A stretch of DNA of 20,509 nt from a virus: positions 1 through 20,509 of the IMG/VR virus record IMGVR_UViG_3300025324_000038; one strand, given 5' to 3'. Each line of letters begins with the position of its first letter. Within the stretch, counting starts at the first letter, position 1. A program made the translations under genes and the position numbers. Below the pieces are notes generated by a model, which saw nothing but the letters and a program-made list of their open reading frames with translations, made no database searches and had not been told where the DNA came from. Of the stretch, positions 2,673 through 6,709 are shown in pieces.

Positions 2673-2812
2673 CAGATATAGCCTAGCACGATTAGCCATG
2701 ACTTGCAGCCATGTTTGCACGCTCCATCGGGCTCTACTCGACAGCCGTCGGTTGCACGTGCTACGCCGTCCATGATCCATCGCTTCATTGTATTGATGCT
2801 AGGCCGTTTCAT
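2672..2812 (-). CDS. Small conserved phage protein with 'VEPDG.C.HG..SWL' motif (46 aa)
   Basis: ATG at 2812 follows a strong AGGAGG (spacing about 8). After a basic N-terminus the protein contains DGCRVEPDGACKHGCKSWL (22-40) and ends in hydrophobic IVLGYI. This C...VEPDG.C.HG..SWL.VLG.I pattern recurs in very small proteins of unrelated phages and plasmids; I recognise the pattern, not a function. Three Cys and one His suggest zinc binding. It is the first gene leftward of the 1.1-kb control region; a TGACACTGTCA palindrome (2829-2839) lies just before the SD, so it is a likely repressor target. Confidence 0.8.
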   Translation of the reverse strand: MKRPSINTMKRWIMDGVARATDGCRVEPDGACKHGCKSWLIVLGYI

Positions 2813-3006
2813 TGTTCTATCCTCCTAGTGACACTGTCATGGTGCCGTCCGATGCGTAAGTAGCTAACTTCGCTCGCGTTTCAAGGCCCCCAATGTCGCC
2901 TGACACTGTCAACCCCGAAACGCTAGGGAAATCAATGACTTGCGAAGCACTACGCTCGCGGCCCCTGTGTGCGTGCGCGTGCGCTGGTTAGAAATCATCC
3001 AATAAG

Positions 3007-3083
3007 TCTTATTCTGGATTCTATAGTCGTATTCTTATCTTAGTATACTACTTCTATATACTACTAGACAACCTAGAATAAGA
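3007..3083. repeat. AT-rich block inside a 9-bp inverted repeat
   Basis: TCTTATTCT (3007-3015) and AGAATAAGA (3075-3083) are perfect inverted arms. Between them lie the palindrome TAGTATACTA (3041-3050) and the direct repeat TATACTACT (twice, separated by TCTA). The block is strongly AT-rich in a GC-richer neighbourhood, so it could be a DNA-unwinding element; it also contains the leftward promoter at 3042-3071. Confidence 0.55.
3042..3071 (-). promoter_or_regulatory. Leftward promoter for the small-gene cluster
   Basis: On the minus strand TTGTCT (3071-3066) and TATACT (3047-3042) are 18 bp apart. Transcription starting near 3035 would pass two TGACACTGTCA sites (2901, 2829) before the first gene at 2812. 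I found no better leftward promoter between 2813 and 3000; a TTGACA there lies within the 2901 palindrome and has no -10. Confidence 0.45.
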
Positions 3084-3209
3084 ACAATCTGGTAAGAAAA
3101 TGACCACCCACGCACACACAGTGGTCGAATCCCTGCTGTCTCCTAAGTGCTCGAAAACGTTGACCAAAGTGCTCTGACACTGTCAGGCAAGGTCAAGGGG
3201 TCAATGGGT

Positions 3210-3246
3210 GCGCGCTAAGCTCGCGTCAGCGTTAGCGAAAGCGCGC
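3210..3246. repeat. Nested GC-rich inverted repeat
   Basis: GCGCGCT (3210-3216) pairs with AGCGCGC (3240-3246), and TCGC (3221-3224) with GCGA (3235-3238) nests inside. It lies between the third and fourth TGACACTGTCA sites. Could be a hairpin in leader RNA or part of an origin; no T-run for a terminator. Confidence 0.4.
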
Positions 3247-3424
3247 TACCGTGTCATCCACAGTACCATGACACTGTCACGCGCGCTTACCTAAACACTT
3301 AGCGCAAGTCACGCGGGTCCAATCTGTAGTACGATCGGCGCTTAGCCAACGACTAACAACACGCTGACACAGAATGCGCCAAAACCCATCACGATTAGTT
3401 AGATAGTGTGTTACGTGCATACAC

Positions 3425-3437
3425 TAGCATAATGCTA
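3425..3437. repeat. 13-bp palindrome TAGCATAATGCTA
   Basis: Perfect TAGCAT/ATGCTA arms around a central A. Stand-alone operator-like site in the control region; partner protein unknown. Confidence 0.4.
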
Positions 3438-3462
3438 ATATGATACCATGATGCTGCCTGGA

Positions 3463-3487
3463 GCGCCCACAACCTGTTGTGGTGCGC
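3463..3487. repeat. Stable hairpin with 10-bp stem
   Basis: GCGC+CCACAA (3463-3472) pairs with TTGTGG+GCGC (3477-3482 and 3484-3487) around a CCTG tetraloop, with one bulged T (3483). A direct repeat GTGCGCGCCCA follows at 3482-3492 and 3510-3520. No T-run follows, so it is not an obvious terminator; it could be an origin or RNA structure. Confidence 0.45.
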
Positions 3488-3538
3488 GCCCATGCGACCA
3501 CTACCCATTGTGCGCGCCCAGGCACGCGCGCACACCAA

Positions 3539-3629
3539 TCGGGCACTATGCCCGAATGATCGGGCACTATGCCCGAACGCTAACCCATTGATATTGCGGT
3601 ACAATCCTGCTATCGGGCACAATGCCCGA
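3539..3629. repeat. Three copies of operator-like palindrome TCGGGCAC(T/A)ATGCCCGA
   Basis: Copies at 3539-3555, 3560-3576 and 3613-3629. Each has perfect 7-bp arms TCGGGCA/TGCCCGA around a 3-bp centre (CTA, CTA, CAA). Starts are 21 and 53 bp apart, close to whole helical turns (2 and 5), so bound dimers would sit on about the same DNA face. This is typical of cooperative repressor operators or iterons. The binding protein is not identified; the HTH-like product of 3952-4341 is one candidate by proximity only. Confidence 0.75.
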
Positions 3630-3639
3630 ATGCGCCCCA

Positions 3640-3653
3640 CCTGTCTAGACAGG
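3640..3653. repeat. Perfect 14-bp palindrome CCTGTCTAGACAGG
   Basis: Fully self-complementary, 11 bp after the third TCGGGCA palindrome and one base before the next palindrome (3655-3674). Operator-like; unrelated in sequence to the other families. Confidence 0.5.
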
Positions 3654-3654
3654 C

Positions 3655-3674
3655 ATATGCAAACATTTGCATAT
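3655..3674. repeat. 20-bp palindrome ATATGCAAA-CA-TTTGCATAT
   Basis: Nine-base perfect arms around CA. A second palindrome with the same CA centre, TTTTAAA-CA-TTTAAAA, lies at 3765-3780. AT-rich palindromes of this kind suit a dimeric DNA-binding protein or strand opening. Confidence 0.5.
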
Positions 3675-3764
3675 TTGAATAATCAAATTAATGCATTGCG
3701 TCAATGGGGGTGGGGGAGGGCTTTTCGACTACTTGGCATGAGAATTGCAGTCATTCTCCCCTAA

Positions 3765-3780
3765 TTTTAAACATTTAAAA
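3765..3780. repeat. 16-bp AT palindrome TTTTAAA-CA-TTTAAAA
   Basis: Perfect 7-bp arms with a CA centre, shared with 3655-3674. It lies about 75 bp upstream of the rightward promoter -35 and could be an activator site or UP-like element; inferred only from position. Confidence 0.35.
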
Positions 3781-3855
3781 CCTATCAGTTTTTAATATCC
3801 ATTCTCGCTTTACATCTAATGTTTCATGAAGCTGGCTGACTAGGCGTGATTTTTC

Positions 3856-3885
3856 TTGACACGTGCGCGTACGGGCTGATAGAGT
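3856..3885 (+). promoter_or_regulatory. Rightward promoter of the virion operon
   Basis: TTGACA (3856-3861, perfect -35) and TAGAGT (3880-3885) are 18 bp apart with a TGA just before the -10. The predicted start near 3892 would place GGAGGAGG (3895-3902) almost at the mRNA 5' end. It is the only convincing rightward sigma70-type promoter I found ahead of the long plus-strand gene series. Confidence 0.5.
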
Positions 3886-3913
3886 CACGCCAACGGAGGA
3901 GGTAGTCTAGGCA

Positions 3914-3934
3914 ATGGATGTCGCTTTGCGATAA
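3914..3934 (+). CDS. Six-residue leader ORF behind a very strong SD
   Basis: GGAGGAGG (3895-3902) is followed by ATG at 3914 and a TAA after MDVALR. A second tiny ORF, MDNDNG (3939-3959), then overlaps the start of the 3952 gene, which has no SD of its own. A leader that delivers ribosomes to 3952 by re-initiation is plausible. The strong SD is certain; translation of the peptide is inferred. Confidence 0.35.
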   Translation: MDVALR

Positions 3935-3951
3935 GTTAATGGACAACGATA

Positions 3952-4341
3952 ATGGCTGAAACAGACGATAAGTCGTTAGAACAGCTCTATACATTGGAAG
4001 TGGCAGCGGAGCTCATCCCCTTTCCTTCGTACGCAGCACTAGTTCTGTGGCTTGGACGACATAAGAGTGAGTTTCCTGGACGTTACCGATTTACACATAA
4101 GCCAGGACAACGACTAGGAAGCGTGCCTCAGCGCATGTTAACGCATAGTGAGTGTGTGCGCATTCGAAAAATGACTGTGGTCGAGTTGGATCTTAGTTAC
4201 AGGGGTCCGCGTCCAGGTGTGCAGCGGACAGGTAATCGTTACGAGTTCCACCGCGAATCTAGCCCCTATCGTGATAGACAGAAGACTACTGCCGCAGGAC
4301 CGCTAGCAAGCATAATGCGACGTGCGATGGTGACAAGGTGA
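3952..4341 (+). CDS. Putative helix-turn-helix DNA-binding protein, first gene of late operon (129 aa)
   Basis: ATG at 3952 is the only start after an upstream in-frame stop; it lacks an SD and is probably coupled to leader ORFs. Residues 10-45 (YTLEVAAELIPFPSYAALVLWL...) read as a 'tool-box' HTH of the kind that begins excisionase/MerR-like and some terminase-associated proteins. A basic segment with RMLTHSECVRIRKM (62-75) and a Gly/Arg-rich basic tail follow. It ends with GTGA overlap onto the next gene. It could be a packaging-site recognition protein or a regulator of the palindromes upstream. Both are inference from the HTH-like pattern and position. Confidence 0.65.
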   Translation: MAETDDKSLEQLYTLEVAAELIPFPSYAALVLWLGRHKSEFPGRYRFTHKPGQRLGSVPQRMLTHSECVRIRKMTVVELDLSYRGPRPGVQRTGNRYEFHRESSPYRDRQKTTAAGPLASIMRRAMVTR

Positions 4342-4877
4342 ATCCTGGACCAGTACCCAAAAGGCGAACGCGCGCTTTCGACGTTCGTGCAATTCGTAAT
4401 GCCGTTATCGAAAATGCAGTTGTTCCACCTGAACTCCTCCAGAAAGCATTCAAAACTCTAGACAAGCACATTAATGCTAAGAAGACTCTCTACTTTACAC
4501 ACCAAGGTAAAGTTGAAGAAACCGTTGACGTGGAAGATCATGAGACGCAACAACGCGCTATTGATAAAGTGTTTCGTATTGCAGACATATACAGTCATGA
4601 GCGTGATAGTGTTTCGAAGAATGCGGTAAGCGCAATTCGAATGACTATAGATCCCAAGACTGGCGTCATGTCATTAATTATCGGGGGCGAGGTTGACGAA
4701 GACCTCGACAGTGCGGGCAATCCTGAAGTTATTGACATTGACGCCAGTGTTTCTACTCCTGCTTTGGAAGCGCACATTCCAGAGTCCGATCCAGAGCCAG
4801 AAGTGGAAACAGTGAAAGTACATCGAATTAAAGGGCTTCCTGCTGACGTATATCGTACGCTTTACGAAGATCCATAA
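4338..4877 (+). CDS. Putative terminase small subunit (179 aa)
   Basis: The GTG start at 4338 overlaps the previous TGA (GTGA). A basic N-terminus (PKRRTR) precedes a helical region with 'NAKKTLYFTHQGKVEETVDVEDHETQQRAIDKVF' character (residues 47-82). That helix / FT.qGkv / ....He.q..AidKv pattern recurs in small-terminase-like proteins next to podoviral TerL genes. The C-terminal third (120-165) is very acidic (DEDLDSAGNPE, ESDPEPEVE), as in other TerS tails. The position two genes before TerL supports the role: recognition of concatemeric phage DNA and recruitment of TerL to the portal. Assignment rests on context and pattern, not a diagnostic motif. Confidence 0.55.
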   Translation: MNPGPVPKRRTRAFDVRAIRNAVIENAVVPPELLQKAFKTLDKHINAKKTLYFTHQGKVEETVDVEDHETQQRAIDKVFRIADIYSHERDSVSKNAVSAIRMTIDPKTGVMSLIIGGEVDEDLDSAGNPEVIDIDASVSTPALEAHIPESDPEPEVETVKVHRIKGLPADVYRTLYEDP

Positions 4878-5113: not shown

Positions 5114-5373
5114 TGTGGTTCGATTGGTCTGTGACGCTAGGATCTTTGGTGAACGTTCTAGCAATTCTTAGCTTCCTGTTTACTGCACATCGTCATTATA
5201 AATCCTATATTGAGAAGATGGCAGCTATGGAAGAAAAGGTTTCCAGAATGCACAAGACATTAATGGGTGGTAACGGAAACATCGAAGACACATTAGTATG
5301 GCGTATATCGAAAATCGAAAATGAATTAAATAGTTTGGATTGTAGACGAATAGGACGCGATCGCGATGGCTGA
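5113..5373 (+). CDS. Small membrane protein with coiled-coil tail (86 aa)
   Basis: The GTG start at 5113 overlaps the upstream stop (TAGTG). One hydrophobic segment (about residues 7-25, VTLGSLVNVLAILSFLFTA) is followed by a heptad-like charged helix (YIEKMAAMEEKVSRMHKTL, 32-50) and a second helix (RISKIENEL). Single-pass membrane proteins with a coiled-coil tail include XhlA-type hemolysin/holin accessories and some inner-membrane spanins. A lysis-related role is possible, but the position next to TerL is also consistent with a packaging-associated factor. The 3' end overlaps TerL by 8 bp. Confidence 0.7.
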   Translation: MWFDWSVTLGSLVNVLAILSFLFTAHRHYKSYIEKMAAMEEKVSRMHKTLMGGNGNIEDTLVWRISKIENELNSLDCRRIGRDRDG

Positions 5374-6709
5374 GACAATTGACGTCTTTAGATTGCGAAG
5401 TTATCAAAGGCCGATGCGGGAAGCGCGTGCCAAGGGCTGTCGTCGGTTTATCAAATTATGGCACCGACGCTGTGGTAAGGACGCGGACTTCATGGCTTTT
5501 GTAATGGAAGAGTCAATGAAGCGCATCGGCACTTATTTTCATATCTTTCCAGCATTAAATCAAGGTCGTCGTGACGTATGGAACAACACAGTCCATTTCC
5601 GGTACGATGGTAAGGAACGCGCACTCAAGTTAATTGATATGTTCCCCGAGCAGGTAATTAAGCGTAAACTCGATGATGAGATGTTAGTTGAATTTAAATG
5701 GGGAAGCGTTTATCAGATAATGGGCGCCGACAGTCGAGAAGCTGTGGATCGCCTGCGTGGACCTAACCCTATCGGAGTGGGATTCTCCGAGTGGGGTCAT
5801 ATGCGTGAGGACGCATGGCTAACGCTAATCCCCGTGCTCGCTGAGAATGGTGGGTGGGCAGCGTTCCTTTATACACCCAATGGAATGAATCACGGCTATA
5901 CTCTATACCAAAATGCGCTCGCGGATCCGGAGAATTGGTGGGTTAGTAAACTCACAGTAGATGATACTTGTAGAGACGCGACCGGAGAAGATGGTTCCCA
6001 ATTAGTCACACTAGAGGAGATTAACGCACTCCGTAAGAACGGCGTACGTGAGGAATGGATTCGTCAAGAGTTCTATGTAGACTTCACTGGATTCGAACAT
6101 GGGACGATCTACGGCGATTGTATTGCGCGCGCCCGAGAAGAGTCGCGGATCGGTTCTATTCCCTATCTAGTGAACCATCCAGTAGGCGTACTATTCGACT
6201 TAGGCCATAGCGATGCAATCGCAATGTGGTTCTATCAAATCTACAATGGCGCGATTCGATTCATTGATTATCACGAGGAATGGCAAAAGGACATTAGATG
6301 GGCCGCGCGTTTCCTACGTGAGAACAGACAGTACATGTATGGCCGACTAGTCCTACCGTGGGATGGGCGCGATGCCGAGATTTACCTATCGTCAATCGGA
6401 TTTCGTAATGTCCATGTAGCAGACCGACCTGTTAGTCTACAAGCTGAGATTGAACGTGTTCGTCGTTACTTTCCCCAATTCTATTTTGACGCGCAAAAAT
6501 GTAGTGTAGGTCTAGATCATCTTTTGAAATATCATAGAAATTGGGATGAAGAAGCAAAAGTGTTTACAAAGCAACCTGTTCATGATCAGCATAGTCACGG
6601 AGCGGATAGTCTGCGTACTGGCGTAGCAGGTGGTTTTGAGCCACTGTTCTTCCCAAATGCTCAGTTAGCATCTGTGAAAGTGGTGACTGACTTTGAACCA
6701 TTACGATAG
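5366..6709 (+). CDS. terL: Terminase large subunit (ATPase/nuclease), 447 aa
   Basis: The packaging motor protein, which pumps phage DNA through the portal and cuts it. The N-terminal ATPase has a Walker A variant HRRCGKD (33-39), a Walker B-like strand IGVGFSEW (136-143, with SE in place of the usual DE) and the coupling motif YTPNG (169-173). The C-terminal RNase H-like nuclease has FDLGHSD (277-283), LPWDGRDAEIY (330-340) and HSHGADSLR (409-417), which supply the acidic metal-binding residues. Length is typical for short T7/podovirus-type TerL (about 430-600). It starts within the previous gene (8-bp overlap) and ends 17 bp inside the next. No break or missing motif; high confidence. Confidence 0.96.
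   Translation: MAETIDVFRLRSYQRPMREARAKGCRRFIKLWHRRCGKDADFMAFVMEESMKRIGTYFHIFPALNQGRRDVWNNTVHFRYDGKERALKLIDMFPEQVIKRKLDDEMLVEFKWGSVYQIMGADSREAVDRLRGPNPIGVGFSEWGHMREDAWLTLIPVLAENGGWAAFLYTPNGMNHGYTLYQNALADPENWWVSKLTVDDTCRDATGEDGSQLVTLEEINALRKNGVREEWIRQEFYVDFTGFEHGTIYGDCIARAREESRIGSIPYLVNHPVGVLFDLGHSDAIAMWFYQIYNGAIRFIDYHEEWQKDIRWAARFLRENRQYMYGRLVLPWDGRDAEIYLSSIGFRNVHVADRPVSLQAEIERVRRYFPQFYFDAQKCSVGLDHLLKYHRNWDEEAKVFTKQPVHDQHSHGADSLRTGVAGGFEPLFFPNAQLASVKVVTDFEPLR

Follow-up and report, generated by a model that had tools for sequence, protein, structure and literature searches.

An array of conserved palindromes upstream of a sigma-54-type promoter element in an uncultivated tailed phage, and its possible role as an enhancer

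Why would a tailed phage carry three copies of one 17-bp palindrome ahead of its terminase genes? The window, by which we mean the whole 20,509-base virus record that we analysed, comes from an uncultivated tailed phage. All three copies lie in a gap of about 1.1 kb (2781-3951) between divergent genes, with small leftward genes from 2780 and rightward genes from 3952 (Table 1). With an arm of 7 and a spacer of at most 5, 9 short palindromes (some of them nested) lie in the gap, as compared with 0.5, and at most 4, in shuffled sequences, so the gap is a dense regulatory region. Rfam and tRNA scans were both empty. A search of isolated phages for close relatives of the window gave no DNA match, and the relatives of its portal and large terminase (TerL) proteins in isolated phages are all below 60% identity to the window. 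Portal relatives were confirmed in none of 190 pattern stretches from bacterial genomes, so prophages offer no route to the host.

Table 1. Features of the window, by position
Feature	Position	Strand	Sequence	Basis or remark
TGACACTGTCA family, the other operator-like family	2829..3279		TGACACTGTCA	four exact copies: 2829, 2901, 3175, 3269
AT-rich inverted repeat	3007..3083			26-nt arms
Palindrome 1	3539..3555	+	TCGGGCACTATGCCCGA	centre about -213 from the inferred sigma-54 start
Palindrome 2	3560..3576	+	TCGGGCACTATGCCCGA	about -192 from the inferred sigma-54 start
Exact IHF consensus	3581..3593	-	WATCAANNNNTTR	sequence match; between palindromes 2 and 3
Palindrome 3	3613..3629	+	TCGGGCACAATGCCCGA	about -139 from the inferred sigma-54 start
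Second palindrome type	3640..3653		CCTGTCTAGACAGG	10 bp after palindrome 3; also L054 3978, L040 4858, L043 1417
AT-rich palindrome	3655..3674		ATATGCAAACATTTGCATAT	window only
Motif shared with L009	3693..3707	+	GCATTGCGTCAATGG	identical in L009
G-run then T-run	3710..3725	+		read by eye
Sigma-54-type -24/-12 element	3734..3749	+	TGGCATG-AGAA-TTGCA	inferred start near 3760
Sigma-70-type promoter	3856..3885	+	TTGACA-N18-TAGAGT	between the -24/-12 element and gene 3952
Predicted MerR-like winged-helix protein	3952..4341	+		129 aa; first gene of structural operon; HMM, model, structure comparison
Conserved protein, possible small terminase	4338..4877	+		179 aa; weak Foldseek match to SPP1-like TerS
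Large terminase subunit (TerL)	5366..6709	+		phrog_2
Rightward genes further on		+		portal 7126, protease 9063, major head protein 10645, tail protein 19238

The sequence-only reading had described three 17-bp palindromes with 7-bp arms, and this description is accurate: the sites match TCGGGCA-CWA-TGCCCGA exactly, and their starts are 21 and 53 bp apart. When 3 mismatches or fewer are allowed, the window has 6 matches (the three sites on both strands), while 100 shuffles of the window gave a mean of 0.07 and at most 2. The whole record holds no copy beyond these three. The unit that they have in common is slightly longer than 17 bp (ATCGGGCACWATGCCCGAAYG), and the asymmetric centre, CWA, has the same orientation in all three.

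The palindrome is not peculiar to this phage. Our portal alignment covers 50 viral loci, including repeat contigs (L054 is the L009 contig and L034 the L027 contig; L030 stands for L030/L031/L032/L037, and L043 for L043/L044/L073). A scan for tandem sites found three viral stretches, and both L009 and L027 belong to the portal family of the window. The tandem site in L028, which looks unrelated to the window and is possibly coding, was set aside. L009 has three palindromes upstream of its homologue of gene 3952. More broadly, with up to 2 mismatches allowed, a palindrome precedes the portal gene in the window, L009, the L030 group, L034, L039, L021/L045, and L036. In 14 regions that were chosen without using the palindrome, with borders drawn by hand as explained below, we found 5 sites as against 0.14 for permuted arms, and when spacers of 0 to 11 were compared in those regions, more than one site was found only with a spacer of 3. 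It had been proposed that the sites are in helical phase, with the spacing in relatives as a check. The arms and the 3-bp spacer are indeed kept, but the phasing is not: the intervals are 21 and 53 bp in the window, 66 and 22 bp in L009, 25 and 61 bp in L030, and 25 bp in L034. What recurs is a close pair, 21-25 bp apart. The three palindromes are real and conserved; judging from the sequence, we think that they are most likely regulatory, and that they are probably control sites. (In L034, a long (CT)n microsatellite, at about 5230-5283, lies between the palindromes and the next gene.)

Might the palindromes work as transcribed RNA hairpins instead, as processing or termination signals? This seems very improbable to us. 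The 111 nt around the palindromes do fold better than shuffled sequences (z -4.56), but that is a consequence of the palindromes themselves. Furthermore, both rightward promoters lie downstream of them, they are not followed by a terminator-like T-run, and what is conserved is the 3-bp spacer and the arm sequence, which goes beyond pairing alone.

As the earlier reading had it, the palindromes differ from the other operator-like family, TGACACTGTCA. This family is real too, with four exact copies in the same regulatory gap. It fits TGACRNYGTCA, the core of the matS site of MatP. L009 has it only in 1-mismatch versions, and in the window a 2-mismatch variant (TGATAGAGTCA, at 3877-3887) covers the -10 of the sigma-70 promoter. 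From the two families, the sequence-only reading suggested a two-repressor switch, or else an origin with separate initiator and regulator sites. It overlooked a sigma-54-type promoter element that lies 105 bp downstream of the palindromes and that is kept in every relative where it could be sought. This element matches 12 of the 12 specified positions of TGGCAYG-N4-TTGCW and has the GG-N10-GC spacing (0.025 expected per shuffled window). At a threshold of at least 10 of 12 positions, it is single and unpaired on the forward strand of the window. For comparison, PMC8743547 gives TGGCACnnTTnTTGC as the sequence that the RpoN holoenzyme selects by itself.

The conservation of the element can be judged fairly if the regions are located by gene position alone. 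By HMM, 16 phages carry the family of gene 3952, and after excluding L053 and L067, which have less than 200 bp upstream, 14 phages remain, the window included. All 14 have a match at 12 or more of 13 positions within 700 bp (13 of 13 in 10 of them), and in all 14 the nearest site is oriented toward the 3952 gene. A TTGAC-type sigma-70 promoter lies between the element and the gene in 13 of the 14. Among 17 regulatory regions, whose borders we drew by hand after having seen the -24/-12 matches, TGGCA is followed by TTGC[AT] at the exact sigma-54 spacing in 27 of 82 cases, and at any other spacing in at most 4; in the rest of those loci, the sigma-54 spacing is found in 2 of 581 cases. The same hand-drawn borders apply to a profile of 75 sites, which has almost no information beyond the -24/-12 positions, as well as to the palindrome enrichment above and the count of pairs in relatives below. 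These features are what sigma-54 predicts: an N4 of variable sequence, either C or T at position 6, and near-empty flanks. Outside this family, the polarity of the 14 relatives does not hold generally: of 28 distinct loci unrelated to them, 8 have the solitary element closest to TerL pointing toward it, 4 have it pointing away, and 16 have none. One of eight isolates examined, MW202742, has a single 12/12 element 536 bp before TerL.

With a conserved sigma-54-type promoter downstream, enhancer function becomes likelier than a repressor switch. An IHF consensus lies among the palindromes as well. In 13 regulatory regions, the exact consensus has 6 matches, as compared with 0.5, and at most 3, in shuffled sequences, and in L009 it lies between palindromes 1 and 2. 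What the DNA gives directly (the palindromes and the -24/-12 element, each with its conservation, and the IHF consensus) has, taken together, the layout of an enhancer-dependent promoter. As in NtrC-type enhancer/sigma-54 promoters such as glnAp2, several copies are found about 140-210 bp upstream of a -24/-12 element, together with an IHF consensus. A bacterial sigma-54 system with three sites is NorR-norVW. The palindromes also have the 7-N3-7 inverted-repeat geometry (17 bp) of NtrC-family enhancer sites, and they share this geometry and a CA-N3-TG core with the NtrC site that is given as TGCACCAnnnTGGTGCA in PMC8743547, although their arms are TCGGGCA rather than the TGCACCA of NtrC itself. 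Unlike the bacterial NtrC-type systems, this one has another arm sequence and is found in a phage that lacks an activator gene, and its promoter element is more widely conserved than its enhancer-like sites. In the window and five relatives, the main -24/-12 element is preceded by palindromes (3 mismatches or fewer), which in the relatives stand at -112 to -327.

As the likeliest single reading, though at somewhat less than even odds, we suggest that the palindromes serve the sigma-54-type promoter of the terminase/structural operon as an upstream activating (enhancer) array and that they are used by an activator of the host. Transcription would start near 3760, once a dimeric NtrC-family activator of the host, seated on the three 17-bp sites, had opened the host's sigma-54 RNA polymerase waiting at the -24/-12 element; IHF, placed between sites 2 and 3, would bend the DNA. 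The sigma-70 promoter would provide a second start, independent of the enhancer. We infer the binding of sigma-54, the binding of an activator to the palindromes, and the timing; we would attribute the activator to the host because we found no phage gene for one. PF00158 was over its cut-off in 0 of 26 relatives, and the L009 record, which ends in a 42-bp overlap and so looks complete, has no PF00158 activator either. A scan of 20 early-side proteins of L009 found no clear regulator. PMC4641369 says that sigma-54 promoters need enhancer-binding proteins without exception. As a general binder, we considered a stand-alone 65-aa Fis-type HTH_8 ORF on the L032 contig (L077, about 1465-1659), which resembles the DNA-binding part of NtrC-family activators but has no AAA+ part, and rejected it, as neither the window record nor L009 has it.

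The missing activator gene is one of several reasons why we keep the probability of an enhancer below one half. Among 43 bacterial stretches with a tandem palindrome, 0 have a -24/-12 site within 500 bp, though the host species of the phage may be absent from that set. Several phages, such as L040, L048, L043, and L051, have the promoter element without the palindrome. And in L030 and L039, one palindrome directly follows a -24/-12 element, which is where a repressor would sit.

Could the protein that binds the palindromes be the phage's own? The product of gene 3952 had been called HTH-like, and its model bears this out, as it predicts a MerR-like winged helix (mean pLDDT 75.5, core above 90). 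The model has VIA matches to CadR, HiNmlR, and RacA with Z of 7.8 and rmsd of 1.8-2.5 over 57-61 residues, where a Z below 8 may mean merely a common arrangement. A single-sequence scan gave no relatives of it; these were found through the portal alignment and an HMM. A PDB profile search with the family found nothing convincing. The palindromes could be operators through which this MerR-like protein autoregulates the structural operon, or packaging sites, of the type of lambda cosB, at which it marks the DNA for the terminase, with IHF bending the DNA between sites. In lambda cosB, the order is R3-IHF-R2-R1. The window likewise has three sites that flank an IHF site, which lies between two of them, and a predicted winged-helix gene, nearest to the DNA-binding domains of the MerR family, at the head of the terminase operon. 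Also, the centre CWA has one and the same orientation throughout the six sites of the window and L009, and lower-ranked VIA matches of the model include the phage packaging proteins 7lw0 and 7lwr. (No lambda gpNu1 entry was recognised in the VIA match list, which is no evidence against a likeness to gpNu1.) On the other hand, the R sites of lambda are not palindromes, and the window has palindromes rather than R-type repeats, with two promoter-like elements between them and the gene. Distribution also counts against such a role: a palindrome with up to 2 mismatches is found in only six of the 14 phages of the 3952 family with upstream DNA (for four of the 14, the upstream sequence is short), and L034 has two palindromes yet no 3952 family member by HMM. 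Sites for the 3952 protein are the main rival to the enhancer reading, and we judge them rather unlikely.

An origin of replication, which the earlier reading had raised as an alternative, also has something in its favour. The palindromes would then be iteron-like sites that bind an initiator. The gap has AT-rich repeats, including the inverted repeat with 26-nt arms, and palindromes, and the cumulative GC skew of the window has its minimum at 3251-3750. Three exact DnaA boxes (TTATCCACA) cluster in L009 within some 40 bp (L054 4166-4204, about L009 6898-6936), downstream of the palindromes and ahead of the -24/-12 element, and L009 also has four TTGATT repeats at 10-bp spacing. But the gap of the window has no exact DnaA box, and L009 is the sole region of 13 with more than one. 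Furthermore, the switch in skew coincides with the change of gene direction, and no initiator gene was identified. We regard an origin as quite unlikely. Repeats of TTGATT/AATCAA with 10-bp phasing are also found near -24/-12 elements at L054 4080-4110, L040 4922-4942, L051 2247-2287, L048 1061-1081, and L043 1529-1539. In the phage of L009 (L256 9100-10854), we also saw one ORF that fuses uracil-DNA-glycosylase-like, 3'-5' exonuclease, and DNA polymerase A domains.

Other elements of the gap recur in relatives too. The CCTGTCTAGACAGG palindrome is found in 4 of 15 regions, with 0 background matches at up to 2 mismatches; in L009 it overlaps the end of palindrome 1. A G-run and a T-run precede the -24/-12 element in the 14 phages, and in six relatives (L030, L033, L035, L036, L039, and L051) an added C-run gives a terminator-like hairpin, CCCCC-GGGGG-TTTTT (both by eye).

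Many of the -24/-12 elements in relatives of the window are paired: 12 face-to-face pairs, 33-35 bp across, occur in 8 phages (L020, L030, L035, L043, L045, L048, L051, and L054). A scan of viral sequences for exact symmetric pairs (33-36 bp across) found 113 stretches, as compared with 9 for a control with the halves 10 bp further apart. In the 80 of these 113 that we examined (L126-L205), the most commonly shared protein family is TerL, which is present in 36; no TerL was recognised in 41 of the 80. Where a locus has a recognised TerL, 35 of its 43 pairs in all are 0.2-2.4 kb upstream of that gene, 2 are downstream, and 6 lie further away. If sigma-54 binds, such pairs would give diverging starts about 19 bp apart. 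This is close to the commonest start spacing of bidirectional sigma-70 promoters, 18 bp, in PMC12825309, but the phage pairs consist of sigma-54-type elements and often form tandem arrays. Arrays occur in L139, L143, L126, L159, and L168, some with 43-bp repeats, and they look unlike ordinary promoters, which counts against the enhancer reading as well. PF00158 was over its cut-off in 0 of 50 pair records (50 of the 80 loci were searched). Given the arrays of 43-bp repeats and the lack of activator genes in those records, the pairs may be something other than sigma-54 promoters. Face-to-face elements were found in 0 of 8 isolates (H31-H34, H36, H40, H42, and H43). They are also absent from all of 398 Pseudomonadota genomes, from which little follows, as few would be expected at the viral rate.

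Phages are known to rely on the sigma-70 of the host, on sigma factors that they encode themselves, or on polymerases of their own. In the open-licence papers that we searched, we found no report of sigma-54 late promoters in phages and no description of host sigma-54 being combined with a phage-borne enhancer for structural genes. It is conceivable, though we lean against it, that many unrelated tailed phages run their terminase and structural genes through host sigma-54, by means of solitary or face-to-face elements just upstream of the terminase operon, and that the phage family of the window adds an enhancer of its own for an activator of the host. The -24/-12 element is short, and the idea can be tested in E. 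coli with purified parts. If it is true, then the symmetric arrays would represent a type of cis-element not yet described, either a bidirectional promoter or a sink for sigma-54. Late expression would depend on the state that the host senses, and the outcome of infection would be wired to the host's nitrogen, stress, or motility signals.
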